This document shows, piece by piece, positions 8,362-32,682 of a stretch of 64,000 nucleotides of DNA. Positions within the stretch are counted from its first letter, which is position 1; every line of letters begins with the position of its first letter. The stretch is from Conyzicola nivalis (GTDB lineage Bacteria > Actinomycetota > Actinomycetes > Actinomycetales > Microbacteriaceae), in the NCBI RefSeq assembly GCF_014639655.1, contig NZ_BMGB01000001.1:682001-746000 (forward strand), in the 5' to 3' direction. The position numbers and the translations under genes were made by a program. Under the pieces are notes generated by a model. It was not told where the DNA came from, did no database searches, and saw only the letters and a program-made list of their open reading frames with translations.

Positions 8362-8679
8362 TCAGGATTCCCCGCCGACCGCCGGTTCTCCTACGAAAGC
8401 GTGGGACTCGCGAGCGAGCTCGGGCCATAGCTGCTGGTCGGCTACGCGTATCCAGTTGCGCGCCGGGTGGTGGTGCGAGGTAAATCTGGCGGCGACGCCT
8501 CGCTGCGCCAGGTCGTCGACGCGGGACTCGGAGAGCTCGACCACCAGATCGTCGTTGTCGAGGAACGCGAAGATGGTCCCGTCGACGTAGAGCTGATTCT
8601 CATTGACGACCACGCGGGCGTCGTCCTCGAACGAGAACGCGACGTCCTCGTATGCTGATGCGGCTTGGGAAGTTGTCAC
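8362..8679 (-). CDS. TfoX N-terminal-like / YjbR-like small protein
   Basis: The 105-aa protein has the line-up seen in TfoX/YjbR-like proteins: a beta hairpin (VDGTIFAFLDNDDLVVEL), SRVDDLAQRGVAARFT, then NWIRVADQQLWPELARESHAFV. The role is unknown outside gammaproteobacterial TfoX/Sxy; actinobacterial relatives are uncharacterised. The gene stands alone, divergent from the glycosyltransferase at 8745. Confidence 0.55.
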   Translation of the reverse strand: MTTSQAASAYEDVAFSFEDDARVVVNENQLYVDGTIFAFLDNDDLVVELSESRVDDLAQRGVAARFTSHHHPARNWIRVADQQLWPELARESHAFVGEPAVGGES

Positions 8680-8708
8680 GTTCTGCCCTTCGTCTGAGTC
8701 ACCTCAGT

Positions 8709-8738
8709 TTTACATCATGGGCGTTGGATGCGTACCGT
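8709..8738 (+). promoter_or_regulatory. candidate promoter of a leaderless glycosyltransferase mRNA
   Basis: TTTACA (8709-8714) and TACCGT (8733-8738) are 18 bases apart, and the ATG at 8745 is six bases after the -10 element. This spacing puts transcription start at or next to the A of ATG. The same geometry recurs at many genes of this window. Confidence 0.45.
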
Positions 8739-8744
8739 TCAGAA

Positions 8745-11074: not shown

Positions 11075-11162
11075 GTCGTTCCTCCCGGAGCGGTGCGAAC
11101 TGCTCCACGCCTCCCGTCAACATACGCCGAACACGCCGATCGGCAGAACCGACGGTGTCGCC

Positions 11163-11191
11163 TTGACATCGGGCGCGCCGATAGTCAGCAT
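11163..11191 (+). promoter_or_regulatory. candidate promoter of the third glycosyltransferase gene
   Basis: A perfect -35 TTGACA (11163-11168) is followed 17 bases later by CAGCAT (11186-11191), which keeps the key A and T of the -10. The ATG at 11199 is seven bases further, again suggesting a leaderless transcript. Confidence 0.4.
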
Positions 11192-11198
11192 TGCCCAG

Positions 11199-12185
11199 AT
11201 GCCGACCCCAGAACAGCCGTACCTCCTCGTGGCCGGTCCAGCGGAACACGGCGTGCGCCGGTACGCCGCGGATCTCGCCGCCGCGATCGGCGGCGAATCC
11301 GGCCCGATGCCCGAAACCCCGCCCGCTCGAATGCACGCGCACGTGACCGACCGCATTTTCGGCTCGTCGCCCGAGGAGGCCGCCGATCGGGTCGAGGCCC
11401 TCGGCGCCTCGACCCGGCTCACCATCACCCTGCACGACGTGCCCCAGCAGTCCGACGGCACCAACCTCGGGCGCCGGAGCGACGCCTACCGCAGGTTCAT
11501 CGGGGCGGCGCGCGGGGTGGTCGTGAACAGCCGCCACGAGGCGATGCTGCTCGACGAGCACCTGGGGCGGGCCGAGGCCGACTCGCGCGTCATCCCGCTG
11601 GGTGCCAGGGCCCGCGGTCCCGCGGACCGGCCACGGGCTGGCGGGTTGCGACCGCGCACCGTGCTGATCAGCGGATTCGTCTACCCCGGCAAGGGCCACC
11701 TCGAGGCAATCCAGGCCGCGGCCGTAGCGGGTGCCCCCGCAGAGGCCGCACCCGCGACCGTCGTCGCTGTCGGGGCGCCCTCGGCCGGCCACGAACGGGA
11801 CGCGCACGAGCTCGCGCGCAGGGCCGCGGAGCTCGGCGTCGACTTCAGGGTGACGGGGTTCCTCGACGACCGCGACTACCGGAACGAACTGCTCTCCGAC
11901 GGCGTTCCCCTCGCGGCACACCAGCACGTGTCGGCGTCGCGTTCGATCCTCGACTGGGCCGAACTCGGGCGCCGCGCGCTCGTCATCGACTCGCGCTACG
12001 CGCGCGAGATGGAGGCGCTGCGGCCCGGCTCGATCTCCGTGTTCCGGCCGGACGAGCTGGCCGGAAAACTGGAGGCGGCATGGAACGACCCCGAGTCGAC
12101 CTGGCTCCCGCCGTCGACGGCCCTCTCGCCGACACTCGACGACGTGGCCGCCGAGTACCGCGCCTGGTGGCGGGACGTCGCATGA
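11199..12185 (+). CDS. glycosyltransferase (GT-B, family 4-like)
   Basis: The 328-aa protein opens with YLLVAGPAEHGVRRYAADLA, a typical GT4 acceptor-side start, followed by LTITLHDVPQ, GVVVNSRHEAMLL (the usual hidden-neighbour step) and RTVLISGFVYPGKGHLEAI in the donor half. The C-terminal donor motif is short. The ATG at 11199 fits a TTGACA-type promoter. It overlaps the next gene by four bases (ATGA), so the two transferases are translated together. Confidence 0.82.
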   Translation: MPTPEQPYLLVAGPAEHGVRRYAADLAAAIGGESGPMPETPPARMHAHVTDRIFGSSPEEAADRVEALGASTRLTITLHDVPQQSDGTNLGRRSDAYRRFIGAARGVVVNSRHEAMLLDEHLGRAEADSRVIPLGARARGPADRPRAGGLRPRTVLISGFVYPGKGHLEAIQAAAVAGAPAEAAPATVVAVGAPSAGHERDAHELARRAAELGVDFRVTGFLDDRDYRNELLSDGVPLAAHQHVSASRSILDWAELGRRALVIDSRYAREMEALRPGSISVFRPDELAGKLEAAWNDPESTWLPPSTALSPTLDDVAAEYRAWWRDVA

Positions 12186-13453
12186 GCCGGGCCAGCATCA
12201 GGGACGGCGGCTGGGCGCTCCCCCACAACCGGTGGGACCTCATCGCCGACGAGCAGCCCGCGGCTCTTCCCTCGGTCTCGGTCGTGATCGCGCATTACGC
12301 ACAGCCGATTGAGCTCGCCCGCACCCTGCTGGCACTGGAACGCCAGAACTATCCCCGCGACCTGGTCGAAATCGTCGTCGCCGACGACGGTTCGCCCGAG
12401 CCGCCGACGGTCGCCGGGAACGTGCGCGTGGTCAGCCAGCCCGACCGCGGATTCCGGGTCGCCGCGGCGCGCAACCGCGGGGTCGAGGTGACCGGCAACG
12501 ACGTGCTCGTGTTCCTCGACGCCGACACGTCTCCCGAGCCCGACTACCTGCGACACATCGTGCGGCTGCCGGCGCTGACCTGGGACGCGGTCACCGTCGG
12601 TCGCCGTCGCCACGCCGATCTGGCCTCCGTCGAAGCCACAGCGCCGATCGCCGAGGCGGGTCGCGCACACGAACTCGACGAGCCGGCATGGTTGCGCGAG
12701 GAGTACACCCGCACCCACGACCTCCTCGACGCGGACCACCGAAGCTACCGGTTCCTCATCGGAGCCGTCGTGGCGTGCACGCGACGGTTCTTCGACGAGG
12801 TCGGCGGGTTCGACGAGTCGTTCACCCGGTACGGCGGCGAGGACTGGGAGTGGGCCTACCGGGCCTGGCTCCGCGGTGCCGTGTTGGCACACGTGCCCGA
12901 GGCCACGGCCTGGCACGACGGACCCGACCGGGCGGTGCGCGAGCCCGGCGCTCTCGGCGCGAAGAACGCCGAGGTGTTGGCACTCTCGGGCCTGATCCCG
13001 GTCGAGGGCTCCCGCCCGCGGGCTCTCGCCGCCGCGAAGGCCGACATCGTCGTCACCGGGCCACGGGCGGGAGGCACCGATGGCCAGGAATTCGTCAGCA
13101 GGGACTCGGTGCTCGCGCAACTGCCGTCGGCCGAGCTGGTGCGACCCGGGTGGAGCGCGGAGGCCCGCTTCGACCGGGTGCGGATCCGGGTCGACCTCGA
13201 GCGCCCGGTGCGTGTCGCACCGGGAGGCCTCGACGCCGCGATGGAGGCCGTCGAGAGCGGCGCGTACGCCCGGGTCGCGCTGCGGCGGGCCGACGGCGCC
13301 GTGCTGCTGCGGCTCGTGAGCACGCGGGCCGAGGTGCGCCAGTCACGCTGGGGCGGCGAGCCGCTGTTGCCGGATCTCGACCTCGTGGCGCCCGGCGTCA
13401 TCGCGCTCGACGCCGAGGTCGACCTCGAGGGCTACCTCGGCGGCTGGGCCTGA
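12182..13453 (+). CDS. glycosyltransferase family 2 (GT-A) with C-terminal extension
   Basis: The 423-aa protein starts at the ATG of an ATGA overlap; the upstream in-frame stretch is a shadow of the previous gene. The GT2 fold is clear: VSVVIAHYAQPIELARTLLAL, EIVVADDGSPEPP, a DXD-type motif VFLDADTSPEP, and galactosyltransferase-like GGFDESFTRYGGEDWEWAYRAW. Residues beyond ~300 form an extra domain of unknown role. It probably elongates a surface polysaccharide with the coupled GT-B enzyme. Confidence 0.9.
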   Translation: MSRASIRDGGWALPHNRWDLIADEQPAALPSVSVVIAHYAQPIELARTLLALERQNYPRDLVEIVVADDGSPEPPTVAGNVRVVSQPDRGFRVAAARNRGVEVTGNDVLVFLDADTSPEPDYLRHIVRLPALTWDAVTVGRRRHADLASVEATAPIAEAGRAHELDEPAWLREEYTRTHDLLDADHRSYRFLIGAVVACTRRFFDEVGGFDESFTRYGGEDWEWAYRAWLRGAVLAHVPEATAWHDGPDRAVREPGALGAKNAEVLALSGLIPVEGSRPRALAAAKADIVVTGPRAGGTDGQEFVSRDSVLAQLPSAELVRPGWSAEARFDRVRIRVDLERPVRVAPGGLDAAMEAVESGAYARVALRRADGAVLLRLVSTRAEVRQSRWGGEPLLPDLDLVAPGVIALDAEVDLEGYLGGWA

Positions 13454-13456
13454 CGG

Positions 13457-14908
13457 TCAGTACGCCTTCGGCACCGTCCAGTGGCTGCCGAACTCGGTGT
13501 CGAAGGCGGCCGGCTCGAACGGACTGTATCCCCCGGCCGGATAGCTCGTGAGCTCGCCGAAGACGATCCGTCCCTCGAGCTGGTAGAGGTCGACCCGCAC
13601 GAAGTCGGTCTCCGCGCCCAGCGTCTCGGCCAGACGGATCATCTCGGCGAGCCCGCTCGGCGGCTCGTGCGGAGGATCGGCCCATGGCGGTCCGCCGCTG
13701 AGCGGCAGGTGGGTCCAGTCGGGCAGGAAGAAGTCCTGGGTGCGCCGGTCGAAGCGGCCGTCGTCGACCTGGATGTAGCGGCACACGCCGTGGAAGACGA
13801 ACAGCTTGTAGTCGTCGGGGATGCTGCCGTCGGGCCCGACGAGCAGTTCCTCGAGGATGATCTGCCGGGGCACCGTGCCGTAGGCCCATTCACGGTTGGG
13901 CCCCTGCCCGTAGAGCTGCTCGAGCCACCGCGCGCCCAGCCGGGCCATCGCGTGCCTGTCGGCGTGCGTGGGCAGCAGGTGCCGGTAGACCCAGCTCGCG
14001 TCCTCGGTCGGCAGCCGCGTGTCCGGCGCCGCGCGGTGCGACACGACGAACGCCGCGCCGCTGCCGTGGGTCGGCTTCATCACGAACTCGTCGGGCAGGT
14101 CGGCGCCGAGCACGACCGCGGGGTCGGGGCTGATCGCGTAGGCCCTCGGCAGATAGCCTTCGCCGATGCGCCGGGCGACGTACTCCCGCACACCCGCCTT
14201 GTCGGCGAAAGTCGTGATGAGGGGGCGGTGGTCGCGCAGCATCTTGTAGCGCACCTTCTCGGTGAACGTCACGGGACGGCGGGTGGTCCACAGTCGCCAC
14301 GCGCGCACCACGCGGCTGCGTTCGCGCATCTTCGCGCGGCCCGCACGCTGGCGACGCCGGTGGGCGACGAACGCGAATCGTCGACGCCATCGCCGCAGCG
14401 GGTTCACCTCCGCGAGAAGAGCGGCGACCCCGTGCCATCCGGAGCTCTCGCGGGGTTCGGAGGAATCCCCGCGCAGGCGCGGATCGAAACGGATGCGGCG
14501 TTCCGGGCCGAGATGGAGGGCGGCGGCGATCCCGAACCCGAGCCGGTGGCTGTCGCGCGCGACGAGTTCGCTGACCGACCGCCAGTCGGAGGCGCGTACC
14601 GCCCAGTTGGTCGAGGTGAGGGGCGGATGCGCCAGGACCGCGCCCAGAAGCGAGCGACGCGCGGCGTCGAGGATGCCGGCGAGCAGCCCGCGGCGCGCGG
14701 CCGGTCCCGTGATCGCCACCAGGTCGGGATCGAGCTGGAACGACCGGGCGACGTGCTCGGACCAGCGCGGACCCGGGCGCGCGCCGACGAAAGCGAGCAC
14801 ACCGTCGAGCGGAGTCGGGTAGTCGGTGCCTTCACCGACCACGACGACGGTCACCGCCGGCAGCGGCCTGGCCTCGATCGGGGGCGTGTCGAGTTCGCTG
14901 GAGGTCAC
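13457..14908 (-). CDS. TupA-like ATP-grasp ligase
   Basis: The 483-aa protein has an ATP-grasp domain of the TupA type from ~residue 210: FTEKVRYKMLRDHRPLITTF, ADKAGVREYVARRIGEGYLP, EFVMKPTHGSGA (phosphate loop), IILEELLV, IPDDYKLFVFHGVCRYIQVD and VRVDLYQLEGRIVFGELTSYPAGG. TupA makes teichuronopeptide, so an amide-ligating decoration of a surface polymer is likely. The first ~200 residues are a separate region resembling part of a glycosyltransferase but without its catalytic motifs. The GTG start at 14908 follows TAGCGT by six bases. It converges with the GT2 gene with a 3-base gap. Confidence 0.85.
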   Translation of the reverse strand: MTSSELDTPPIEARPLPAVTVVVVGEGTDYPTPLDGVLAFVGARPGPRWSEHVARSFQLDPDLVAITGPAARRGLLAGILDAARRSLLGAVLAHPPLTSTNWAVRASDWRSVSELVARDSHRLGFGIAAALHLGPERRIRFDPRLRGDSSEPRESSGWHGVAALLAEVNPLRRWRRRFAFVAHRRRQRAGRAKMRERSRVVRAWRLWTTRRPVTFTEKVRYKMLRDHRPLITTFADKAGVREYVARRIGEGYLPRAYAISPDPAVVLGADLPDEFVMKPTHGSGAAFVVSHRAAPDTRLPTEDASWVYRHLLPTHADRHAMARLGARWLEQLYGQGPNREWAYGTVPRQIILEELLVGPDGSIPDDYKLFVFHGVCRYIQVDDGRFDRRTQDFFLPDWTHLPLSGGPPWADPPHEPPSGLAEMIRLAETLGAETDFVRVDLYQLEGRIVFGELTSYPAGGYSPFEPAAFDTEFGSHWTVPKAY

Positions 14909-15035: not shown

Positions 15036-15117
15036 TATCCGAAGTCGCGCGTTTCGGGCCCTCCGGCGCCGGCGAATTGCGGCAAGGACCGGCCTAGCCG
15101 ACGGACCCTCAGAGTTC

Positions 15118-15123
15118 TATAGT
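15118..15123 (+). promoter_or_regulatory. -10 element upstream of the Hsp70-like gene
   Basis: TATAGT is a near-perfect -10 box about 40 bases before the GTG start at 15163. No clear -35 is seen at the right distance. Confidence 0.4.
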
Positions 15124-15162
15124 GGGGCGCGTAGATTCCTGTCGGGAACGATTGGTCAGTCA

Positions 15163-16620
15163 GTGAGCGAATCCGAATTCGTTCTAGCGATCGAAATCGG
15201 CAGCAGCCACATCGCCGTGGCCACTGCCCGTCTGACGCAGAGCGAGCAAGCCGAGGGCGCCCTTCACGAGGGCCCCCGTTCGCATCGGAGAGCGCCCGCG
15301 ATCGCCTACCTCGCCCACGACGACACGCTGCTGTTCGGCGAGGAGGCCGCTCGACGAGCCGCTGAAGAACCGGAACGAGCTGTGACCCGCTTCGGCCACC
15401 GTCTCGGCGACGACACCCCCTTTGTCATCGACGGGTACGCACTTTCCGCTGAATTCCTCTACGCCAAAGCCGTGTCATGGGCCATCGACTCTGTCACCGA
15501 GACCGAAGGGGCAGCCCCGGTCGCACTCACGCTCACCCACCCGGCGCACTGGGGCGAACACCGCCTCACGACTCTCCGGGACGAACTGAACCGGCAGGGC
15601 ATTGCCGAAGTCGCCCTCATCCCTGCCGCGAAAGCCGCGGCGATGCAGCTGGACGTGTCACACCCGATCGAGCCAGGTGAGACCGTCGCTGTCTACGATC
15701 TGGGAGCTGAGACGGTCGAGTGTGTCGTGCTGCGCAAGCGCCACGACGGCCGTTTCGACATTATTGGCGAGGCGGTGCACATCGACAACATCGGGGGCGC
15801 CGGATTTGACGATGCCGTTCTCGAACATGTGATCGCTGCCGCCGCGTCTGATCTGGCACGCTTCGCGCCTCACCGCGACGCGTCGCACCTCCGAGACACG
15901 GTGCGAGCGGCAAAGGAAGCGCTCTCGTCCCATCCTGATGCGACCATCACCATCCCCGTCGCCGCGACCAGCGTGCGCATCACCCGTGCCGAGTTCGAGG
16001 ACATGATCGTCGACGACGTCGACCGAAGTCTCGGAGCACTTACGCAGGCAGTCGAATCCGCCGCCATCACACCGGGCGCGCTCCGCGCAATCGTGCTCGC
16101 AGGTGGCTCAACACACATCCCATTAATTGCTCAACGACTGTCGGACCGATTCACCTGCCCCGCCGTGCTCGATGTCGCTCCGGAAGCTGCGGCGGTGCGG
16201 GGGGCCGCACGCACGAAGCTCGCTGAACTCCGCGCGCAACAGGTCTCCGTCACCGGAGCAGACAGCGAGGTCGACGAGTTCACCGACGACCCACGGTCGT
16301 TCTCCCCCGAACTGATCGACGCATCTCCGGCACCTGTGTCCGCTCTCAGGAGGGCCCTCTTCATCTTTTTCGCCATTGTCGCCACGGTGATGGCCGGCGC
16401 CATCGTGCTCGGGGGCGCCGCTGCGGTTGGCGGCACCCGTTCCGACCTATCCGGCGGAGCGACACGTTCGAGCGACGCTCTCACCCGCAATCCCACACCC
16501 ACCCCGTCAACATCGGCAATTACGCAACCCGCTTACCCGCCCCCGCCCCCAACACGCGACCCGACGCGGACCGAGCCAATACCCCCGGCTCAGGAGTTGT
16601 CGGGAGCGGATATGGACTGA
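15163..16620 (+). CDS. membrane-anchored Hsp70-like (actin-fold) ATPase
   Basis: The 485-aa protein begins with an Hsp70/DnaK-type actin-fold domain: phosphate-1 loop (LAIEIGSSHIAVATA), ALTLTHPAHWGEHR, phosphate-2 loop (VAVYDLGAETVECVV) and adenosine motif (IVLAGGSTHIPLIAQRLSDRF). There is no DnaK substrate-binding domain. Instead a single membrane helix (LFIFFAIVATVMAGAIVLGGAA, about residues 396-420) is followed by a ~60-residue Pro/Thr-rich tail, presumably outside. It is followed after 15 bases by the LuxR-type regulator. The role is probably ATP-dependent sensing or remodelling at the membrane for the iniBAC-like system; that is inference from context. Confidence 0.85.
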   Translation: MSESEFVLAIEIGSSHIAVATARLTQSEQAEGALHEGPRSHRRAPAIAYLAHDDTLLFGEEAARRAAEEPERAVTRFGHRLGDDTPFVIDGYALSAEFLYAKAVSWAIDSVTETEGAAPVALTLTHPAHWGEHRLTTLRDELNRQGIAEVALIPAAKAAAMQLDVSHPIEPGETVAVYDLGAETVECVVLRKRHDGRFDIIGEAVHIDNIGGAGFDDAVLEHVIAAAASDLARFAPHRDASHLRDTVRAAKEALSSHPDATITIPVAATSVRITRAEFEDMIVDDVDRSLGALTQAVESAAITPGALRAIVLAGGSTHIPLIAQRLSDRFTCPAVLDVAPEAAAVRGAARTKLAELRAQQVSVTGADSEVDEFTDDPRSFSPELIDASPAPVSALRRALFIFFAIVATVMAGAIVLGGAAAVGGTRSDLSGGATRSSDALTRNPTPTPSTSAITQPAYPPPPPTRDPTRTEPIPPAQELSGADMD

Positions 16621-16635
16621 CCCGAAGGATGCCCC

Positions 16636-19158
16636 ATGTCGCCGCTCACCGCGTTGCCGTTGCCAGCCACACGCCCACCCTTCGTATGGGAACGGCATAT
16701 CCGAACCGCACTCGATGCAGTTGCAGCCCCCACCACCCTCGCGCGAGCCTACGTGGTCGGCAACGCGGGCTCCGGCAAGTCATCCACACTCCGCCACCTC
16801 TACCAGCTCCTCCAGGCGCGCGAACGCGATGCGCATCTGATCGGAGATGACTCAACCGGGCTCGCAGGCATCCCGCCGTCACACGTCGTCCTCGTCGACG
16901 ACTTGCACCTCCTACATCCCGAACAGATCGCCGCCGTGCTCAAGCGCGCGGAACGAGCCGATGCAGGCCTCATCGTAGCCAGCCGGCCGTGGCCGACCTC
17001 CGCGACGATCGCGGCGATCGCACACCGCCTGGAACAGACGCGCCCCGCCGTTGTCTTGGGGCACCTCTCACCTTCCGACGTGCGTGACTACCTCGCCGAC
17101 AGCAACAAGCAGCTCTCGCAACCGTGCCTCGACCACATACTCGAAGCGACCGGCGGTGTTTCCTGGCTCGTCGCCGAGGCACTGCACGCCCACGATGACC
17201 GAGACTGCGCCGGCGACACCGCCCACACCGAACTGAGGCGACACCTTCAGGAGCACATCACGCACCGACTCGAGTCGGTGAACCTCCCCCTTCGCGACGC
17301 CATCGAGAAGCTCTCGATTGCCCCGCCGGGCCCGGCCAGCGCACTCGCCGACCGCGACACGATCATGCACGGCTACGCCGAAGGCCTTCTGCTGCGCAAC
17401 GGTCAACCGGTTCCGCTCGTCCGCTGGGCCGTTCACGCCACTATGCCGATTCCGAACCTGGTACACCACGCCAACGACCTCATCGAAGGGATCGCCGACT
17501 CCGTCGCCCGCGGTGAGACCGCCTACCGAGACTGGCTCGGCCCCGTGCAAGACAAGGCAATCGGCCACGTCCTCGCCACACACGCCCACCGCCTCCTCGA
17601 TAAAGATCCTGCGCAGGCGGCCAAGCTGCTGCAGTCGGCAGTCGAATCCGGCCTTGACCCCGCACCGCTGGCCGGGATGCGGGCCCAGGCCGCCTGGGCC
17701 ACCGGCGACCTCGACTCCGCGAGCCGCATCGTCGACGAGACGGCACCGCAGGAGCCTTCCGTCGAAAACGACCGTCTCATCGACACCGCAGCAGCCATCT
17801 GGTCCACCCGCGGCATGATGGAGCAGGCGGACAAGTTCTACCGCGTGAGGAAACCGGTCTCCGCCGAGTCGCAAACGCGTGCCGCAATTGCCGCGCTGGG
17901 GGTTGGTGACGGAAGCCAGCTCAGCGACTCCGTTACCGATGAATCCCTACCCCCATCGACGCTCCAAGTTGCCATGCAACTACTGCGTCGCGGCCTCGCC
18001 ACATCCGTGGCATCCGACCAGCCCGCGGGGGCCCTCGCCGACCTTGTGCGAGCCACCGATCTCTACACCCGAACTCGAACAACCGCGGCCATTCCAGAAC
18101 TACCGGCAGTAGTCGCCGCGATCGTCGCCCTCAACCTCGGCGGCCTCGCTACGGCAGCGACCATCATCAAGGAGGCCATTCGCGGCCAGCACGGCGGCCA
18201 ATGGGGACACCGGCGACTCCTGCTGTGGCGTGCCTGGATTGCCGTACAGCAGGCGCGGCCCGCCGAAGCACGTGCAGCCCTCGATCAAGCGCAGGAACGG
18301 ACAAGCGAAAAAAGCGCACGGGATGCCCTGCTTGCGAGCGCCATCGAAGTCGCCATCGCGCGGCGCTACGACGATGCTGCCGGCCTCGAAAAAGCGTGGC
18401 AACGCACTCGCGGCACAATCCTGCGCACCGACGTCGATCTCTACGTCCTGCACCCGCTGGCAGAACTCGTCTGCTCCGCGACGCGACTCGGCGACATCGA
18501 ATGGATCAGGCCCCATTTTCACCACGCTCTCGACCTCTGCACCCGCCTGCAGGAACCGCCGCTGTGGTCGGCGCATCTGCGCTGGGCGGGGGTGCAACAG
18601 GGAATTCTCGCCGGGCGGCCGGAGCTCCTCGCCCCCCATGCAAAAGCCCTGGTCACGGCGTCTGCTCACAGCCGCGTCGCCTCGGTCATGGCGAAAGCCG
18701 GACGGGTCTGGACCTCGGTACTCGCGGGCTCCGTCGATGCCGACGCGATCGAAGCCGCAGCAACTGACCTCGCCTCTATCGGACTCATCTGGGACGCTGC
18801 CCGCCTCGCCGGCCACGGCGCAGGTCGCACCGACGACCGCAAGATTGCGGCCAGACTACTCTCCTGCGCACGCGCACTTCACCCCACAGAGACCGGACAG
18901 CGAGTCACGCCTGCGCCAGACGAGAGCACGAGCGCTCACACCGCCGCCGAAGAGGTGCTGAGCGAACGCGAGATCGAGATAGCTCAGCTCGTTCTGCAGG
19001 GAAAGACCTACGCCGCGATCGGAGAAGCGATCTACATTTCGCCCCGGACCGTCGAGCACCACATCGCCCACATCCGCCGACGCCTGGGCGCCACCTCACG
19101 TTCTGACGTGCTCGCGAAACTCCGGATCCTGATCGAGGACCACGCGACGTCCACCTAA
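16636..19158 (+). CDS. large ATPase LuxR-type regulator (IniR-like architecture)
   Basis: The 840-aa protein has an N-terminal P-loop ATPase: Walker A YVVGNAGSGKSSTLRHLY (~residue 40) and Walker B VVLVDDLHLLHP (~90), then a long helical, TPR-like middle region. It ends in a LuxR/GerE helix-turn-helix, LSEREIEIAQLVLQGKTYAA...ISPRTVEHHIAHIRRRLGA (~residues 775-830). This is the LAL/MalT-like layout also found in IniR, the activator of mycobacterial iniBAC. GAAGGA stands six bases before the ATG. Its likely targets are the two iniB-like genes, each with a similar palindrome upstream. Confidence 0.88.
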   Translation: MSPLTALPLPATRPPFVWERHIRTALDAVAAPTTLARAYVVGNAGSGKSSTLRHLYQLLQARERDAHLIGDDSTGLAGIPPSHVVLVDDLHLLHPEQIAAVLKRAERADAGLIVASRPWPTSATIAAIAHRLEQTRPAVVLGHLSPSDVRDYLADSNKQLSQPCLDHILEATGGVSWLVAEALHAHDDRDCAGDTAHTELRRHLQEHITHRLESVNLPLRDAIEKLSIAPPGPASALADRDTIMHGYAEGLLLRNGQPVPLVRWAVHATMPIPNLVHHANDLIEGIADSVARGETAYRDWLGPVQDKAIGHVLATHAHRLLDKDPAQAAKLLQSAVESGLDPAPLAGMRAQAAWATGDLDSASRIVDETAPQEPSVENDRLIDTAAAIWSTRGMMEQADKFYRVRKPVSAESQTRAAIAALGVGDGSQLSDSVTDESLPPSTLQVAMQLLRRGLATSVASDQPAGALADLVRATDLYTRTRTTAAIPELPAVVAAIVALNLGGLATAATIIKEAIRGQHGGQWGHRRLLLWRAWIAVQQARPAEARAALDQAQERTSEKSARDALLASAIEVAIARRYDDAAGLEKAWQRTRGTILRTDVDLYVLHPLAELVCSATRLGDIEWIRPHFHHALDLCTRLQEPPLWSAHLRWAGVQQGILAGRPELLAPHAKALVTASAHSRVASVMAKAGRVWTSVLAGSVDADAIEAAATDLASIGLIWDAARLAGHGAGRTDDRKIAARLLSCARALHPTETGQRVTPAPDESTSAHTAAEEVLSEREIEIAQLVLQGKTYAAIGEAIYISPRTVEHHIAHIRRRLGATSRSDVLAKLRILIEDHATST

Positions 19159-19206
19159 GCGGCTTTCCCGGGGCGACGCGCGGAGACAGCCCCGTAGGCC
19201 CCCTCC

Positions 19207-19234
19207 CCAGCATCGGGGTCATCCCCGATGCTGG
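19207..19234. promoter_or_regulatory. 12-bp perfect palindrome: candidate regulator operator (site 1)
   Basis: CCAGCATCGGGG / CCCCGATGCTGG around TCAT, 101 bases before the iniB-like start at 19336. It could be a terminator for the LuxR gene, but it has no T-tract and its core resembles a site upstream of the (SDN)n gene. A TAGCAT -10 candidate lies at 19252-19257, which would put the palindrome centre near -44, the usual LuxR-activator position. Confidence 0.5.
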
Positions 19235-19335
19235 TGCGGGACCGCGAGCAATAGCATCCGACGTGAGACCCGGCCGCTGCGGAGCGACAGAGTTCCGATG
19301 CTTCGAACACCTTTATGGAAATGAGAAGTCACATA

Positions 19336-20160
19336 ATGAATTCACCCGTCGCTACCATCGCTGACGCACTGATTGCATTCATACTGAGTCTCCTGCGCGA
19401 CCCGGACGCCGCAGAAAAATTCACCAACGACCCCCAAGGCGCCATGGCAGAAAACGGCGTACAGGGCGCGAGCTTGGCCGACGTGCGCGACGTCAAACCG
19501 GTCATCTTCGACAACCCTCAGGTTGAACCGAAACCGCCCACCCCCTCGGCGCCGGCTTCCGCGGCGGAGCCCGATGAGGTGGTGGTCGAGATCGTGAGAA
19601 TCATGAACCAGTTCACGACCGTAGACGCGAACCACCTGACGACCGTCGACGCCCGATCGACTATCGTCGACCAGTCCGTGAACCAAAACATCTGGACGGA
19701 GGGTGGTGACGTCACCCAACTCTTCGATCAAGAAGCTGTCATCGCGGCCGGCGACGACGCCGTCGCAGCCGGAAACGACGCGAGCACGATCGATCAAGAC
19801 CTCGACCTGACAGTCGGCGACGTCACCGTCGGCAACGACACCTATAACGACAGCTTCACCGACGCTGACATCGCCGTCAGCGCTCCTCAGCCAGACGCGC
19901 CAGACGCCCCAGAACAGACAGACTCGCCAGAACAGACGGACGCCGTGCAACAAGCACCAGGCGCGGAGCCCGAGGCGCAGCCTGCGCCGGAAGCAGCCGA
20001 GCCGCCTGTACTCGAAGCGCCGCAGACGCCGGCATCTCTGCCAGAGCCAGCCGACAATCTGGAGTCCGATTTGACGACCGTTTCCGGCGACAGCTACGAC
20101 CCGGGCACCGCTACTCTTCCCGACGAACAGATCGCCATCGACGATCCTGTCGACGAGTAA
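19336..20160 (+). CDS. IniB N-terminal-domain protein
   Basis: The 274-aa protein begins ADALIAFILSLLRDPDAAEKF, close to the start of mycobacterial IniB, and continues with the acidic DPQGAMAENGVQGASLADV (domain ~residues 5-60). The middle holds DARSTIVDQSVNQNI and DDAVAAGNDAS, followed by VGDVTVGN, a module shared with the (SDN)n protein at 24563. The C-terminal ~95 residues are Pro/Ala/Glu/Gln-rich and disordered. There is no signal peptide. The ATG at 19336 is preferred because the domain starts right after it; ATGs at 19315 and 19321 are in frame. Function unknown: IniB-family proteins are induced by cell-wall stress in mycobacteria. Confidence 0.82.
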   Translation: MNSPVATIADALIAFILSLLRDPDAAEKFTNDPQGAMAENGVQGASLADVRDVKPVIFDNPQVEPKPPTPSAPASAAEPDEVVVEIVRIMNQFTTVDANHLTTVDARSTIVDQSVNQNIWTEGGDVTQLFDQEAVIAAGDDAVAAGNDASTIDQDLDLTVGDVTVGNDTYNDSFTDADIAVSAPQPDAPDAPEQTDSPEQTDAVQQAPGAEPEAQPAPEAAEPPVLEAPQTPASLPEPADNLESDLTTVSGDSYDPGTATLPDEQIAIDDPVDE

Positions 20161-20172
20161 CGCGCTGCGCCC

Positions 20173-20868
20173 GTGACCGAGACCTCGAGCGGAACGCCCG
20201 CTGTACCCGAGCCTGCCGGTGACGCGCTCACGAGAAGCGTGTCACCCGCAGTGTCCCGTGCCCGAACCGTGAGGTCGGCGGGAACGGCTGATCCGGAACC
20301 GACCCACGAGGCTCCCGCGCGACCCTCGCTGGTCAGCGATAACGCCCCGCCCGTGCTGGTCAAGAAGATCGCCCCCTTCTCCGTGCGGCTGAGTCAGTTC
20401 TTCTGGGTCGCCAGCATCGCGGTCGGGGTCTTCACCCTCGTCTACTACTTCGTCATCCGCGAAGATCTGTTGCCGCTGGTTGCTGATCGAGCGCGGCAGG
20501 TCAGTGCGGGTCGTCCCGACTCGGTCTACGACTCCGCGAGCGACATCATCTTCTGGACCACCTTCGCGGTGCTCGCCGGCACGGTGTTCCTCCAGATCGT
20601 ATTTCTCGTGTCGTTTATGAGTCGGCGCCCCCGAATCCGGTGGTGGCAGCTGGCGACACTCGCTCTGCTCGGCGCCGTCGTCGCACTAGCGCCGGAATGG
20701 ATTGCGCTCGGCGAACCGGGCGCGCCAATTCAACCGCTCCTTGCGGCGCAGGTGACGGCGGGGCTCGTTGCGCTGCTCCTCAGCGTCTGGCCCGGGGCTC
20801 TCCGATGGTCCGCTCGGCAACACGACGTCCGCCGGGGATCGGAGAGCACGGGCGGCTCCGATTTCTGA
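20173..20868 (+). CDS. four-helix membrane protein of the iniB-like locus
   Basis: The 231-aa protein has an N-terminal ~65-residue polar, Pro/Ala-rich stretch and about four membrane helices (near FFWVASIAVGVFTLVYYFVI, IIFWTTFAVLAGTVFLQIVF, LATLALLGAVVALAPEW and LAAQVTAGLVALLLSVW). It matches no family I recognise. It lies 12 bases after the iniB-like stop with no clear Shine-Dalgarno, so it is probably translated by reinitiation. The last 183 bases are antisense to the iniC-like 3' end. Confidence 0.65.
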   Translation: MTETSSGTPAVPEPAGDALTRSVSPAVSRARTVRSAGTADPEPTHEAPARPSLVSDNAPPVLVKKIAPFSVRLSQFFWVASIAVGVFTLVYYFVIREDLLPLVADRARQVSAGRPDSVYDSASDIIFWTTFAVLAGTVFLQIVFLVSFMSRRPRIRWWQLATLALLGAVVALAPEWIALGEPGAPIQPLLAAQVTAGLVALLLSVWPGALRWSARQHDVRRGSESTGGSDF

Positions 20869-22314
20869 CGCAATACCGTCGAGGCTTCGGATGACGACCT
20901 GGCAGATCATCCGTACCTCGCGGTCCGCCATCGGAGAAGCGGCCAAGCGCCGCCAGTGGGATAGCGCCTCGAATGTTCGCTCCCCCACCTCGTGCGCCTC
21001 TGCCTCCCCTGCAAGGCCGAGCCTCTTCTGAGGTGTGACCCCACCCGCGCCCAAGAGCATCTGCGCGGCGGCGGCATCTGCCGGGGACAATGGCAGCGCG
21101 TCTGCCCGGGCACGAGCGAGCAGCTCCAGCTCGCGAAACGCGTGCGCACGGCACACAATCGCTTCGATACCGCCGTGGATGCTGCGAGCTTCGGGCCGCG
21201 GACGATTGCGCAGCAACCACTCCAGCTGCACGACGATGCCCCGCGCCTTGAGGGCGGCCGAACGTAGAACGAACTGATCCCGCACGAAGTCCTCGAGATC
21301 GAGCAGCCCGCTCTGCTGGACAAGCGCAGTCGAGAGTTCGGAGGAGCTCGTCGCTCCACCGCGGACGAGTGCCGTCGCCAGACGGATACCGTACATGCCG
21401 AACCGGTCCAGCAGGGACGTCCGTATCGCCGCACTCACCGGCGTCAGACCGGTGGGCCTCATGAACCGGTCGGCTGAGAGGAGGAGACGCTCCCGTGCGA
21501 CGCGGTCGAGGCGGGCGAGTTCGCGGAGTGCGATGAATTCGCTTTCCCGCAGGGTGCGGGCGCCCTCGGCGACCAGCCCGGCAATGGGAATCACCCCCAG
21601 CACAAGTGAAGCGAGATCACCGTGGCGTTCGTAGCGTTGCGCCACCTTCCGCGCCGACAGGAGTGAGTCGATGCGACCCGACCCGATCTCATCGGCCCGC
21701 GATAGCACACCCACTGCCGAAACCGTCTGGGCTGCTCCGGGAGCGCTGTCTCGGAACGCTTCCAGAAATCGCACATCCGCCGCATGGAGGTGCCGCATGA
21801 GGTAGACGACGGCATCCGCTGCCGACGGCGACTCGTCAGGCGTGAGGTACCGAGCAGCGCGCGCTGACGTGCTCTCGGAGAGCGACGCGATGCCCGGCGT
21901 ATCGACGAGGGTCAGGGAACGCAGCGACTCCAAGGGCCACGCAACGTCGATCCACTCGATCTCCTCGGCCGACATGCCGCCCAGGGCGAAGACCAACCGA
22001 CCACCATCACGCCGGATCGGCATGCGCTGTGGTGCGCTGTCCCGGGGATGGATGGTGATTTCCGGCGTCGCCGAATAGCGGTACACGGTTACGACTCGTG
22101 TGCATTCCCCCGTGTCCGTCGGCGCGATCTGTTCACCCAGAAAGGCATTGAGCAATGTCGACTTGCCCGCCTTCACGATCCCCGCCACGGCGAGGCGCAA
22201 CGGCTCACGAAGCCGGGCCTCAAGCTGGTCGAGGAATGTTTCCGCGATCGGATCATCGGCGTACGCCGTGCGCGCCTGACTGAGCAGTTTTTCGGCATCA
22301 GCCACGAATGTCAC
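20686..22314 (-). CDS. IniC-like dynamin-family GTPase
   Basis: The 542-aa GTPase shows G1 AGIVKAGKSTLLNAFLGEQIA with the IniC-typical PTDTGECTRVVTVYRY (G2), G3 LVDTPGIASL and a G4-like SRAD in place of N/TKxD. The rest is helical. Its GTG start overlaps the stop of the iniA-like gene (GTGA), so the two GTPases are translationally coupled and probably work as a hetero-oligomer on membranes, as in mycobacterial IniA/IniC. The last ~61 residues are basic and overlap the convergent membrane-protein gene; IniC is shorter (~490 aa), so this tail may be extra. Confidence 0.87.
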   Translation of the reverse strand: MTFVADAEKLLSQARTAYADDPIAETFLDQLEARLREPLRLAVAGIVKAGKSTLLNAFLGEQIAPTDTGECTRVVTVYRYSATPEITIHPRDSAPQRMPIRRDGGRLVFALGGMSAEEIEWIDVAWPLESLRSLTLVDTPGIASLSESTSARAARYLTPDESPSAADAVVYLMRHLHAADVRFLEAFRDSAPGAAQTVSAVGVLSRADEIGSGRIDSLLSARKVAQRYERHGDLASLVLGVIPIAGLVAEGARTLRESEFIALRELARLDRVARERLLLSADRFMRPTGLTPVSAAIRTSLLDRFGMYGIRLATALVRGGATSSSELSTALVQQSGLLDLEDFVRDQFVLRSAALKARGIVVQLEWLLRNRPRPEARSIHGGIEAIVCRAHAFRELELLARARADALPLSPADAAAAQMLLGAGGVTPQKRLGLAGEAEAHEVGERTFEALSHWRRLAASPMADREVRMICQVVIRSLDGIASEIGAARALRSPADVVLPSGPSESPGPDAEEQRNEPRRHLRRKERLNWRARFAERNPFRR

Positions 22315-24266
22315 GACGCGCTCCGCACAGCAGGGGCTGAATCCACCATCGATTCGGATGCTGGTGCGGCTGTCAGCTCGGGGAGGGGCGGCACTGCCTC
22401 ACGCAACTTCTCGAGCTGCGCGAGCTTGGCACGCAGCTCCGCAACCCGCTCATCCCGCCGGGACGTGTACGAGCCTGCCGCCTGCTTCGCCGCCAGCAAC
22501 GCGTCCGACAGCGACCGGTGCAGTTCCTCTGCAATTCCGCCGAAGTGGTCGCGTGAGATCCGCTGCACCAACCGCAAACGATCCCTCAACTGCTTCCCTA
22601 CCTGGAAGATGACCTCGTCGATGTATCGGCGCACGTGGGTCTTTGCCTCCTGCTGCCGCCGATGGAGGCGCGTCTGCATGTCCTCCCGGTACGCGCGGCG
22701 GCCCACGAAGACCCCGGCGAGCAGCGACAGCGGATTGATCAGCGCCAGCCCGATGAGTCCGGTCGCGAGCCCCACCATGAGCACCCCGCCGTACGAGCCA
22801 CGGACCCCGATGAAGATCTTCTCCCCCGCACCCAGCCTCCCCGAATCCAGGTACGAAAGCTCCTCGACAGGGTCGAGCACCCCGTCGGTACTGCCCACGT
22901 GGATTGCGGGAATGCCGGTTTCCCCCTCGCTGAAAAGACCTGCGACCTCCTCCGACAGCCACCTCGATCGCTCATCCGTCCACACGAACGTCTCGGCCAC
23001 GGCCGCGGCGACGCGCTGCTCCAACCAGTCGGTAATCTGATCCCAGATCGGACCCGGGTCACCCTCGTCGATTGCTCGTTCCGCCTCCCGTTGTACCTTG
23101 CGCAATCGATCTCGGAGATCGTGCTCCATGTCGGCGATGAGATCAGCGATCCCGTCGGTCAGGTGCACCTGCCAGCGAGCTGAGCGCCCCCGGAACTCAT
23201 CTGCGCGGGCCTTCGCCTCCTCCAATTGCGCGATCATCCGGGGAGTATCCTCCGGGTTCTCCAGCGCGTTCAACTCGATGCGCAGCGACAACATCAGCTG
23301 CTCGACAACCGAGGTGAGATCGTGAACGGCGCTGCGTTCATGGATGACCTCGGCGCGACCCAACACCTCCCGCCGGAGGTGGGCGACAAGCGCTGGGAAT
23401 CCTGACTCGTCATTGAGTTCGTGATCCTGCAGGTCGGCGGCCAGCAACCTGAGGTCGCTGGAAACGGAGAAGAGCGGTACCTCGCCCACGTCAATGAGGT
23501 GGTTCCGGTCGATGCGTTCGACCTCACGCCACTGCGGGTACAGATCAGTTTTCGCCAGTACCGCCGCAACGTTCGGCGACAGTCGCATGGCGTGCCGTAG
23601 GAACTGGACTTCGGGTTCCGTGTATTCCTGAGATGCATCCGACACCAGCAAGACGGCGTGCGCGGAGGACAGAGCAGCAAGCGTAGCCAGTGAGTTGGTC
23701 GATTCGAGGCCACCGACACCGGGCGAATCCACGAGGTTCAAACCGCCACGCAGGATTTCCCGCGGGAGAAACACTTCCGCAGAGAGCACCTGCCGCTGGT
23801 TGTTCGGATTTCCGCGCTCCGACACATACGTCGAAACCTCGTCCAGCGGGATAGGACGCCGCGTGAAGCGAGGCGTGGATGTGGTCGAGTCGGGTGCCTC
23901 CACGGTTATCCACGCCGACGGCGTGTCGGCGTATCCGACCATCGTGGGCACGCTCGTGGCGACATCGTCATCGACGGGACACGCCGGCGCGTTGATCAGG
24001 GCATTGATGAGCTTGCTCTTGCCCTGCTTGAACTGCCCGACAACGATCACCCGCACACCCGGGTCGCGCAGGCGGACCGACGTCTCCTCCAGGCGCCGCG
24101 CAAGATCTGTGCGGCCGCTCACCTTCACGATCGCGTTGACGTCGTGCAGTGTCTTCACGAGTGAAACCGCGTCCCGCGAACGCTGCGTCGCCGACGCGGC
24201 TTCCCACAGCGGCGGCTGCCCGGCCAGAGCCATGTATGTCTCATCCGTACCTGCAGCTTCGTTCAC
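22311..24266 (-). CDS. IniA-like dynamin-family GTPase
   Basis: The 651-aa protein has a dynamin-type GTPase domain: G1 VVGQFKQGKSKLINALI, PVDDDVATSVPTMV, G3 LVDSPGVGGL and G4 AKTDLYP. A long helical stalk follows, with a hydrophobic hairpin near residues 490-520 (GVLMVGLATGLIGLALINP) that would insert in membrane, and a C-terminal coiled coil. Mycobacterial IniA has the same plan and causes membrane fission in vitro. The GTG start has GGGAG five bases upstream. It is coupled to the iniC-like gene, and both lie downstream of the (SDN)n gene. Confidence 0.9.
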   Translation of the reverse strand: MNEAAGTDETYMALAGQPPLWEAASATQRSRDAVSLVKTLHDVNAIVKVSGRTDLARRLEETSVRLRDPGVRVIVVGQFKQGKSKLINALINAPACPVDDDVATSVPTMVGYADTPSAWITVEAPDSTTSTPRFTRRPIPLDEVSTYVSERGNPNNQRQVLSAEVFLPREILRGGLNLVDSPGVGGLESTNSLATLAALSSAHAVLLVSDASQEYTEPEVQFLRHAMRLSPNVAAVLAKTDLYPQWREVERIDRNHLIDVGEVPLFSVSSDLRLLAADLQDHELNDESGFPALVAHLRREVLGRAEVIHERSAVHDLTSVVEQLMLSLRIELNALENPEDTPRMIAQLEEAKARADEFRGRSARWQVHLTDGIADLIADMEHDLRDRLRKVQREAERAIDEGDPGPIWDQITDWLEQRVAAAVAETFVWTDERSRWLSEEVAGLFSEGETGIPAIHVGSTDGVLDPVEELSYLDSGRLGAGEKIFIGVRGSYGGVLMVGLATGLIGLALINPLSLLAGVFVGRRAYREDMQTRLHRRQQEAKTHVRRYIDEVIFQVGKQLRDRLRLVQRISRDHFGGIAEELHRSLSDALLAAKQAAGSYTSRRDERVAELRAKLAQLEKLREAVPPLPELTAAPASESMVDSAPAVRSAS

Positions 24267-24277
24267 GTGAACTCCCG

Positions 24278-24478
24278 TCAGAGAAAAAGGTCGAGGCCGA
24301 GCGGTGCGGCCTCGAGACCCGGTTCGTTTGTCTCGTTGCCCCAGAGCACCGCGGTGTCAAGGTCCCATTCGGATGCATCGACGTTCGTGAGTTCGTCGGT
24401 GAACAGATTCACGTCGGACACGTCGGAGGCTCGGTCTGCGGGTGGGTCCGTCAGCCACCCTGGCCCGTCGCTTGTCAT
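24278..24478 (-). CDS. 66-aa acidic protein of the iniBAC-like operon
   Basis: The small acidic protein (TDELTNVDASEWDLDTAVLW, ending LGLDLFL) lies between the (SDN)n gene and the iniA-like gene. The ATG at 24478 has GGGGG eight bases upstream; a GTG at 24487 is in frame. It matches no family I know. Position and acidity suggest a small partner of the GTPases or repeat protein. Confidence 0.5.
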   Translation of the reverse strand: MTSDGPGWLTDPPADRASDVSDVNLFTDELTNVDASEWDLDTAVLWGNETNEPGLEAAPLGLDLFL

Positions 24479-24514
24479 GACCTTCACCCCCGTTGATTCT
24501 GTTCGACCCTATGT

Positions 24515-24551
24515 GTGTGCCCGGCCGCCCAGAATGGACGGCCGGGCACAC
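24515..24551 (-). terminator. 13-bp hairpin between the (SDN)n gene and the downstream operon
   Basis: Perfect arms GTGTGCCCGGCCG / CGGCCGGGCACAC with an 11-base loop, 11 bases after the stop of the (SDN)n gene. There is no T-tract on the minus strand, so it may be a partial terminator or mRNA stabiliser that lowers GTPase expression relative to the repeat protein. Confidence 0.6.
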
Positions 24552-24562
24552 GCGGATCCGAC

Positions 24563-25594
24563 CTAGAAGTCGAGATCGTTACCGCTGAGAGGGCTGGCCA
24601 CCTGCACGTCTTCGATGTCGACGTCCAAGCTGTGGTCGTCGATGGACCAGTTGTCGGAGAGGTCGTTCATCGAGTTGTCTTGGAACGAATCCGTCACCGT
24701 AAGGGTGTCGGAGAGATCGTTCGTGGAGTTGTCTTGGAACGAATCGGTCACACTCAGGTTCTCGGAGTAGTCGTTCATCGAGTGGTCGTCGATTGACCAG
24801 TTCTGGGAGTAGTCGTTGTTGAACGAGTCAGCGTACGACGTGTTCCCTACCGCGACATCTCCGACGTTGACGTTCGTGTTGACGGTGCTGAACGAGGCGT
24901 CGTTGCCCGCAGCGACCGCGCCGTCACCTGAGGCAGTCACGCTGCTCTGGTTGAAATGCTGGCTGACGTTTCCGCCGAGCACGCTTGCGCCGTCTGCCGT
25001 GCCACCTGCCGCAATGGCCGCTCCGCTGCCGCCCGCCGCAGTAGCGATGTTCTGGTTGACCGACTGGTCGTTCAGAGTCGATCTGGCGTCGATAGTCACA
25101 TCGCCGCCACCCGCACCACCTGCACCACCACCGGAGAGGTTGAGGTTGCCGAAACCGGCGCTGTACTGCCGGATGCCCACGTCGATCGAGTTGTCGTTCA
25201 GCGTCGTGTTTCCGGAGTCCGCAACCGAGTTGTCCTGGAACGAGTCGTTGATCGAGTCCTTGTAGTTGGAGTTGTCGGAGTTATCCGAGTTGTCGGAGTT
25301 GTCTGAGTTGTCGGAATTGTCCGAGTTGTCGGAGTTGTCGGAGTTGTCCGAATTGTCTGAGTTGTCGGAATTGTCCGAATTGTCCGAATTGTCCGAGTTG
25401 TCTGAGTTGTCGGAGTTATCCGAGTTGTCGGAATTGTCGGAATTGTCGGAGTTGTCGGTGTTATTCGACAGGAAATCGTTGTCCGAGTTGTCGCTGTTGT
25501 CTGAGTTGTCTGAGTTGTCCGAATTGTCGCTGTAATCGCTGTTGTCGGTGTTGGTTTGAACCCCCAAAAAGTTGAGGTTGTCTTCTGCAGCCAT
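24563..25594 (-). CDS. (Ser-Asp-Asn)n repeat protein sharing a module with the IniB-like protein
   Basis: The 343-aa protein has AGGGGA six bases before its ATG. Residues ~15-110 are almost only Ser-Asp-Asn triplets, with one interruption (DFLSNNT). It continues with DSINDSFQDNS, an Ala/Gly-rich part, then DARSTLNDQSVNQNI, DGAVAAGNDAS and VGDVAVGN, the same module as in the IniB-like protein at 19336. The end repeats DSFQDNS and NWSIDDHS. It has no signal peptide, membrane helix or IniB N-terminal domain. By position it replaces iniB before iniA and iniC. A self-assembling, metal-binding or scaffold role is possible, but unproven. Confidence 0.8.
   Translation of the reverse strand: MAAEDNLNFLGVQTNTDNSDYSDNSDNSDNSDNSDNSDNDFLSNNTDNSDNSDNSDNSDNSDNSDNSDNSDNSDNSDNSDNSDNSDNSDNSDNSDNSDNSDNSDNSDNSNYKDSINDSFQDNSVADSGNTTLNDNSIDVGIRQYSAGFGNLNLSGGGAGGAGGGDVTIDARSTLNDQSVNQNIATAAGGSGAAIAAGGTADGASVLGGNVSQHFNQSSVTASGDGAVAAGNDASFSTVNTNVNVGDVAVGNTSYADSFNNDYSQNWSIDDHSMNDYSENLSVTDSFQDNSTNDLSDTLTVTDSFQDNSMNDLSDNWSIDDHSLDVDIEDVQVASPLSGNDLDF
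25266..25555 (-). repeat. 9-bp tandem repeat encoding Ser-Asp-Asn
   Basis: Degenerate 9-base units (sense TCN-GAY-AAY) run through most of 290 bases and encode the Ser-Asp-Asn tract; a short non-repeat break near 25465-25485 splits them. Synonymous differences between units show protein-level conservation rather than a recent pure expansion. Confidence 0.9.
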
Positions 25595-25668
25595 GATGTG
25601 TCCCCTGCTCGTTGATGAGAGTGCCGAAAGTGGCGTTGCAACGAGTCTGAAACTTCGCCAGAGTCACG

Positions 25669-25690
25669 ACATCGGGGCATGGCCCGAGAC
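25669..25690. promoter_or_regulatory. candidate regulator operator (site 2), upstream of the (SDN)n gene
   Basis: In the sense of the downstream gene it reads GTCTCGGGCCATG CCCCGATGT, which aligns base for base with site 1 (TCGGG-N5-CCCCGATG, same 22-base span). It ends about 74 bases before the start at 25594. A weak -10-like CAGACT lies 33 bases from the palindrome centre, against 34 at site 1. Confidence 0.5.
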
Positions 25691-25830
25691 ATCCCGATTT
25701 TGAGGCGGGGATAAGCAGGAAACCCACCCGAGGACAGTAGGGGGTCGATCTCAGCCTGACCCGCGTAGTGAGCGCAGTGTGGATGCTGGTCGTCATCGTC
25801 GCAGCGGACGGATCTGCCGCGCCGAATTGT

Positions 25831-32535: not shown

Positions 32536-32682
32536 CGGCTCGCTTTCGTGGAAACTGACTGTTCTAGAGACGATACCGAACGGATGCTGCGGGTCGGCTA
32601 GGCGTGTCCTCCACGGCTCCTGCGGGCGGCCGGGTTTTGCGAGTGCGCCGTCGGCGTCGGCGGCACCTGTCAGGCTGTACCG

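Follow-up and report, generated by a model that had tools for sequence, protein, structure and literature searches.

A rearranged iniBAC-type locus with an Hsp70-like gene beside iniR in Conyzicola nivalis, as read from its sequence

Gene content of the locus

The window examined here, meaning the whole stretch of 64,000 nucleotides from Conyzicola nivalis (assembly GCF_014639655.1, contig NZ_BMGB01000001.1, positions 682,001-746,000; the genome comprises 3.34 Mb in three contigs), contains between positions 15163 and 25594 eight genes that sequence comparisons identify as a rearranged iniBAC-type system outside the mycobacteria, in the Microbacteriaceae. The original prediction for this DNA had placed eight genes in two convergent blocks, and a check of the window's open reading frames (ORFs) found all of them at those positions. 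The forward strand carries the genes for an Hsp70-like protein (15163-16620), an IniR-family regulator (16636-19158), an IniB-family protein (19315-20160, with a second ATG at 19336) and a four-helix membrane protein, TM4 (20173-20868). The reverse strand carries, overlapping and in tandem, those for an IniC-like (20686-22314) and an IniA-like (22311-24266) dynamin-family GTPase, and, at higher coordinates, those for a 66-residue protein (24278-24478, its ATG start internal to the listed ORF) and a (Ser-Asp-Asn)n protein, hereafter the (SDN)n protein (24563-25594).

The regulator has an N-terminal ATPase with a P-loop, a weak middle region resembling tetratricopeptide repeats and a C-terminal LuxR helix-turn-helix domain (9.5e-14), and it matched the IniR model NF038181 over the whole length of the profile (9.6e-104, 348.4 bits, positions 5-825 of 827). 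By its IniR gene, the nearest named relatives of the locus are a Salinibacterium metagenome-assembled genome (78% identity in the best segment) and Microbacterium (50-52%). The IniA-like protein aligned over residues 37-617 with the Mycobacterium smegmatis IniA structure 6j72 (438 bits), both GTPases carry a Dynamin_N domain, and the IniB N-terminal domain was recognized in the IniB-family protein at 59.1 bits, with a cut-off of 40. Matches of the IniC-like protein to solved dynamin-type structures were confined to the GTPase region; its relatives (approximately 1e-87 to 1e-109) stand beside IniA and IniR in those loci of group f19 that hold both, two of which exceed the cut-off of the IniR model. 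The IniR proteins of L049 and L065 exceed that cut-off with 1402.4 and 1277.6 bits, and because of these scores and an Rv0340-family protein in L065, group f19/g49 is taken as Mycobacterium, an assignment drawn from the two IniR proteins of that genus that were scanned.

A core of five gene families around IniR

IniR was surveyed in 394 genomes of the class at 1e-20 with two candidates scored per genome, so that the class count is a lower bound. It was found in at least 38 of the 394 genomes and in two of 40 near relatives, the window's own genome included in both cases, and was not found at 1e-20 in any of the five other genomes of the genus, two of which are 63% and 82% complete. IniR loci of other genomes, 38 in number (37 from the class, and that of G011), were then compared by phmmer (E <= 0.01) in stretches of at most 20 kb. 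Genes for the two dynamins, DynA and DynC, were near IniR in 36 loci each and were missing in L070 and L072, where a contig end is close; Hsp70-like and IniB-like genes were each present in 35 loci, the latter being missing in L053, L072 and L075, and TM4, (SDN)n and 66-residue genes were present in eight, five and two loci, respectively. These data define a core set consisting of the Hsp70-like gene, IniR, IniB, IniA and IniC. The eight genes had been expected to co-occur in relatives, and this holds for the five-family core but not for all eight; a fixed eight-gene unit is not borne out, given the restricted distribution of TM4, (SDN)n and 66-residue genes and the layouts described below. 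Neither a failure to co-occur nor a pairing of the Hsp70-like and LuxR genes with other neighbours, the outcomes named beforehand as speaking against the original prediction, was observed.

The Hsp70-like gene lies on the same strand and directly before IniR in 26 of the 35 compared loci that have it and in 13 of 13 loci of the family set; the loci of f28 have it elsewhere. In L050, L051, L055, L056 and L059, all of f19, iniR has a second Hsp70-like gene on its opposite side. Within the family, IniA was found in 16 of 249 genomes (1e-30), and IniR was present in all 16, beside IniA or on another contig where the contigs split; this check used locus stretches that included a set of 15 from 13 genomes. 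By phmmer, the only relatives of TM4 came from family f1 and from two loci of f6, and (SDN)n and 66-residue genes that stand alone were seen only in loci with the window's layout. When named genomes were scanned with one IniR sequence as the query, seven loci came up, and an alignment query might reach more. Outside the Actinomycetes, two Acidimicrobiales metagenome-assembled genomes (L099 and L100) have IniR together with IniC- and IniA-like genes; the contigs are short, and no Hsp70-like gene was seen on them.

The IniB family

By homology, the eight genes reduce to five families, with the (SDN)n and 66-residue proteins as pieces of the IniB family. The IniB and (SDN)n proteins have a module in common (45 of 94 columns identical, E 8e-18 in a single comparison), and the latter is a paralogue within the IniB family that lacks the IniB N-terminal domain; its repeat array (25268-25529) consists of 29 copies of a 9-bp tandem repeat, and IniB proteins of relatives with the other layout, layout B, end in DSFND or SDN repeats. 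A profile built from six stand-alone 66-residue proteins matched its own kind, including L096, which lay outside the profile, and it also matched second (SDN)n-type proteins of relatives, namely those of L040 (6e-6), L041 (9e-4) and L102 (2e-7, ORF residues 228-266 of 272); in L101, the same tail ending is visible by eye. The 66-residue protein is thus homologous to the C-terminal tails of these second proteins and looks like a detached tail. L040, L041 and L101 each hold two tandem (SDN)n-type genes, and a WD.DAD.IWG-like tail is found only on the second.

The self-assembling parts proposed earlier were not borne out: in the structure model of the (SDN)n protein, the mean predicted local distance difference test score (pLDDT) was 42 and 314 of 343 residues were below 50, so that a solenoid reading was dropped and no fold is claimed. 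The model of TM4 was also weak (mean pLDDT 54).

The Hsp70-like protein

The Hsp70-like protein matched the HSP70 domain at 1e-24 (87.2 bits, with a cut-off of 20.6) and the nucleotide-binding domain of DnaK (2v7y) at 1.8e-22. No substrate-binding domain was matched, as the HSP70 profile match ends at 369 of 599; the nucleotide-binding domain is followed by a predicted membrane helix and a tail of 69 residues (19% Pro, 14% Thr). The residues aligned with Asp8, Lys70 and Glu171 (DnaK numbering) are Glu, Gly and Ala. A membrane-anchored Hsp70-like ATPase had been predicted; the Hsp70 domain and the predicted anchor stand, but the word ATPase is doubtful given these substitutions. Likewise, a chaperone role is unlikely because no substrate-binding domain was matched and the catalytic site appears decayed, and the chaperone-like part of the earlier interpretation is not favored.

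A helix after the nucleotide-binding domain (hydropathy above 1.6) was found in 52 of 59 scored Hsp70-like rows, with L114 left out and four cut or unmatched rows unscored. Of the other seven rows, L042 plainly has no such helix, L045 and L063 are truncated by the end of the stretch, and L046, L053, L104 and L105 fall barely below the threshold. Tails in f19 contain up to 51% Thr. Canonical catalytic motifs were found in the five f28 loci, L075, eight of 13 layout B loci, L040, L041, L043, L101 and L102. The window, L039, L042, L094-L097 and every f19 copy in the comparison have changed motifs. With the labels assigned, the IniA tree requires at least seven switches between canonical and changed motifs, a count that does not tell loss from gain and in which six rows are unlabelled (L057, L061, L098, L099, L100 and L107). 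Since the canonical state is that of DnaK, we infer that the catalytic residues were repeatedly lost.

Arrangement and possible mobility of the locus

Two layouts were distinguished. Layout A, that of the window, consists of Hsp70-IniR-IniB-TM4 facing IniC-IniA-(66-residue)-(SDN)n, so that iniB and iniA/iniC stand in convergent blocks; layout B consists of Hsp70-IniR-IniB-IniA-IniC facing TM4, and its members keep the order iniB-iniA-iniC on one strand. In a tree of IniA (56 rows, quick method, midpoint root; L114, identical in sequence to L094, left out), the 13 rows of the layout A clade, L107 among them, were joined with a support of 100 in the Shimodaira-Hasegawa-like approximate likelihood ratio test and were nested in layout B at forks with values of 88 and 94; the labelled rows need a single change of layout. 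Because of this nesting and the B-A-C order elsewhere, layout A was probably derived from layout B. In both layouts, the convergent 3' ends of the TM4 and IniC genes overlap by 56-261 bp (23 of 27 rows, L094 and L114 counting as one sequence). The overlap in the window measures 183 bp (20686-20868), and such overlaps could bring about antisense coupling.

Blastn against the nearest relative, represented by the contigs L094 and L107, gave a match that spans 15106-25745 and ends near both limits of the locus, although approximately 4 kb and 8 kb more were available for comparison. The two contigs are treated as a single genome because L094 is identical to L114 of G633. Together with the five congeners in which no IniR was found, the extent of the match suggests that the locus moved as a block. 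A look for an empty site gave no clean one: the sulfatase gene is present in G001 (82% identity), and the DNA there is not colinear with the window flanks. Plasmid carriage was also considered and set aside, as the two records that match the IniA-like protein at 1e-20 are both megabase-sized.

A shared promoter element

A perfect palindrome with 8-nt arms lies before iniB (19211-19230, forward strand), with a -10-like TAGCAT 21 nt further on, and a related element lies before the (SDN)n gene (25670-25689, reverse strand; exact core 25670-25687); the coordinates of the original prediction took in the former and omitted the latter. The exact core, TCGGG-N5-CCCCGATG, occurs twice in the 3.34-Mb genome, and both sites are within the locus. 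Upstream of iniB in 25 f1/f6 loci (L114 used for L094; L097, a near copy of L096, left out), CCGATGC was present in 13 regions and CCCCGAT in 12 (approximately 1 and 1.7 expected; best 7-mer in 100 shuffles, 10). CCCCGAT was also present in 10 of the 11 regions upstream of first-copy (SDN)n genes (0.8 expected; best in shuffles, 7); the three second copies were counted separately.

A composite rule (GGG, 5-9 nt, [AC]CCG[AT][TC], 17-25 nt, TANNN[TG]) matched 20 of the 25 f1/f6 iniB promoters and 39 of 44 iniB/iniB* promoters of other actinomycetes, 59 of 69 in all. In the other actinomycetes, CCCCTA occurred 2.23 times per promoter, as against 0.08 in control promoters with five iniB promoters included. 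A first control, in which all long frames were counted, many of them surely spurious, gave 18 matches in 1399; it was replaced by non-overlapping long ORFs (L114 and L097 left out), which gave five in 269. All five (L052, L061, L064, L065 and L069) sit between iniB* and iniA and are iniB by position, leaving none in 264. A matrix trained on 35 f1/f6 sites (24 iniB, L108 having no chosen site, and 11 first-copy (SDN)n) matched six of six promoters in f28 and six of the remaining 38, and the element has drifted in mycobacteria.

The publications drawn on are PMC5760070, PMC6715688, PMC13413693, PMC4159319 and PMC6104191, Boot 2017 among them. In M. tuberculosis, a chromatin immunoprecipitation (ChIP) peak of IniR is described directly before iniBAC (Boot 2017). 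The shared element is a candidate IniR operator; its occurrence upstream of iniB, and partly upstream of the (SDN)n gene, agrees with the earlier view of the locus as regulated. A literature search by titles and abstracts found no description of the element, which in mycobacteria may not be new.

Proposed function and alternative explanations

The locus is probably an IniR-controlled envelope-stress system of the iniBAC type. Envelope damage would alter a cytoplasmic cue, for which trehalose (Boot 2017) or ATP, whose level is linked to iniBAC induction (PMC6104191), is reported in mycobacteria. The IniR-family protein, which resembles MalT and combines an ATPase with a LuxR DNA-binding domain, would then act on half-sites (CCCCTA or CCCCGAT) upstream of iniB and of the (SDN)n gene, thereby activating both convergent blocks. 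IniA and IniC would jointly cut or patch the damaged plasma membrane; for M. smegmatis IniA, membrane fission in vitro is described (Wang 2019), and the membrane remodelling proposed earlier would follow from the IniA match together with the published work on IniA. The IniB-family proteins, with a hydrophobic N-terminal domain and tails rich in Asp, Asn and Ser, may be structural or adaptor partners of the dynamins. In the weakest step, the Hsp70-like protein would be a membrane-anchored nucleotide-binding partner rather than a chaperone, and its tail, presumably outside, would report the state of the envelope to IniR.

A broader possibility, held only tentatively, is a general actinobacterial circuit for envelope damage, in which a pseudo-Hsp70 with an outward tail and repeatedly lost catalysis gates IniR as a STAND (signal transduction ATPases with numerous domains) activator, disordered Asp/Asn/Ser-rich IniB-family proteins serve as scaffold or cargo for IniA and IniC, and there is one conserved half-site operator; if so, that operator would drive the pseudo-Hsp70, IniR, IniB-family and dynamin parts together. 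The ancestral cue, moreover, was perhaps not specific to mycolates; this is suggested by the presence of these core genes, with a promoter element of the same type, in a family that is not known to have mycolic acids.

Several observations weigh against the envelope-stress system. The regulator, at 348.4 bits, scores below the equivalog cut-off of 750 of NF038181. The DNA-binding domain of IniR is 52-91% identical to that of the window and the rest of the protein 21-79%, the domain being higher in every row; LuxR-type helix-turn-helix domains are conserved in general, which makes this comparison weak support. Microbacteriaceae are not known to have mycolic acids, and a trehalose-lipid cue may not apply to them. 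Contact between the Hsp70-like protein and IniR would be hypothetical, and the Hsp70-like gene is missing near IniR in L057, L061 and L072 (in L072, IniR is at the contig start). The composite rule was devised after the sequences had been viewed, and many rows are close kin, so that its counts are not independent events. It matched none of the 11 first-copy and none of the three second-copy (SDN)n promoters, which deviate from it in the left GGG or in the TA of the -10 box; most of these promoters have [TC]ANNNT at the same distance, as judged by eye, and before the window's (SDN)n gene only the right half of the composite element is seen. If one mismatch is tolerated, the core gains 34 further matches across the genome, and the matrix reached p <= 0.05 in only 12 of the 44 promoters of other taxa, of which at least L062 and L063 lie off the expected place.

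Other explanations were considered for the element, for the Hsp70-like protein and for the locus as a whole. That the CCCGAT element is a site of another regulator or a sigma-factor element is unlikely. Its right half does lie at about the -35 position, its role as an IniR site is putative, and HpoR also binds the mycobacterial iniBAC promoter in the literature; however, the HpoR motif given there differs, the IniR ChIP peak lies directly before iniBAC (Boot 2017), and in loci with IniR from several families the element precedes iniB* as well as iniB. It is rather improbable that the Hsp70-like protein works as a genuine chaperone tethered to the membrane, one that uses ATP to fold or remodel the dynamins or the IniB-family proteins. 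The strength of the HSP70 domain match and the canonical motifs kept in several lineages (e.g., L040, L041, L044-L048 and L101-L106) would fit such a role, but a predicted membrane helix and a Pro/Thr-rich tail stand where a substrate domain would be looked for, the Lys70/Glu171-type residues are changed in the window, its nearest relatives (L039 and L094-L097) and all f19 copies compared, and the state changed repeatedly on the IniA tree.

As for the locus as a whole, it might have an everyday task in growth, division or the closing of the septal membrane instead of one under stress, as DynA and DynB have in Streptomyces. Tandem bacterial dynamins are common (PMC4159319), which would suit such a task. 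We give this little credence, as the locus was not found in most relatives, including the congeners surveyed for IniR, and a dedicated regulator and promoter element are coupled to it. Least probable, and by our estimate very much so, is a dynamin-based system for phage defence or abortive infection: both GTPases weakly match the PADLOC LeoA/LeoBC models (best 1.9e-13), the locus is patchy in the family and DNA similarity to the nearest relative ends near its limits, yet the IniA match of 438 bits compares with 48 bits for the defence models, the other five proteins scanned had no defence match or only weak domain matches, and no recognized defence gene was seen among the ten flanking ORFs.

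Flanking genes

Those ten ORFs encode two glycosyltransferases and ATP-grasp, RidA-type, sulfatase, endonuclease/phosphatase-type and J-domain proteins, and three have no Pfam match (1e-5). The left flank (8652-14908), with glycosyltransferases and a TupA-like ATP-grasp protein, is perhaps a surface polysaccharide cluster; its ATP-grasp gene was not found in the five congeners at 1e-30. An ORF of 967 residues at 31603-34506 has a J-domain near its C-terminus, and the real gene is probably much shorter. This J-domain protein was considered as a partner of the Hsp70-like protein and rejected, as the ORF is probably mis-started and neither the protein nor its J-domain had a match among the ORFs of the other loci (1e-3).

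Comparison with known systems

E. coli LeoABC also has tandem dynamins, and its profiles match the window's GTPases weakly; the similarity is far below that to IniA, and LeoABC is not known to have IniR, IniB or Hsp70-like partners. E. coli MalT is a STAND activator and ATPase with a helical-repeat middle and a LuxR helix-turn-helix domain, and its operators consist of repeated G-rich half-sites. The window's IniR has the same domain plan and candidate operators of that kind; the half-site and the partner genes differ. IniR has been likened to MalT in Boot 2017, whose discussion leaves open whether IniR itself binds the cue; iniBAC has been investigated as a mycobacterial reaction to cell-wall drugs.

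With mycobacterial iniBAC, IniR (Rv0339c) and iniB* (the Rv0340 family), the window has in common an IniR-family regulator, an IniB-domain protein, tandem IniA and IniC, and the same kind of promoter element before iniB/iniB*. It differs in its separate convergent IniA/IniC block with an (SDN)n IniB paralogue and a 66-residue tail protein, in the presence of TM4, in a regulator under the IniR equivalog cut-off and in its non-mycobacterial host. The window's IniA-like protein aligns with M. smegmatis IniA (6j72/6j73), and fission was measured for the M. smegmatis protein only (Wang 2019). An Hsp70-like gene adjoins iniR in M. smegmatis as it does in the window: one sentence on this one species places a dnaK-like gene "directly downstream of iniR" (Boot 2017), whereas the gene here mostly lies directly before iniR on the same strand.

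A literature search by titles and abstracts found no account of the window's layout or of the Hsp70-like gene as a general member. The locus had been thought not to be described in this form, and this is true of the layout as far as that search goes, but the core system is known and Boot 2017 already records the dnaK-like neighbour in M. smegmatis. A rearranged relative of iniBAC could shed light on the sensing and repair of envelope damage in bacteria, and repeated catalytic loss in a regulator-tied Hsp70 domain would be an unusual use of that domain. The present analysis adds the reduction to five families, the catalytic variation of the Hsp70-like proteins, layout A as one clade and the composite promoter element.

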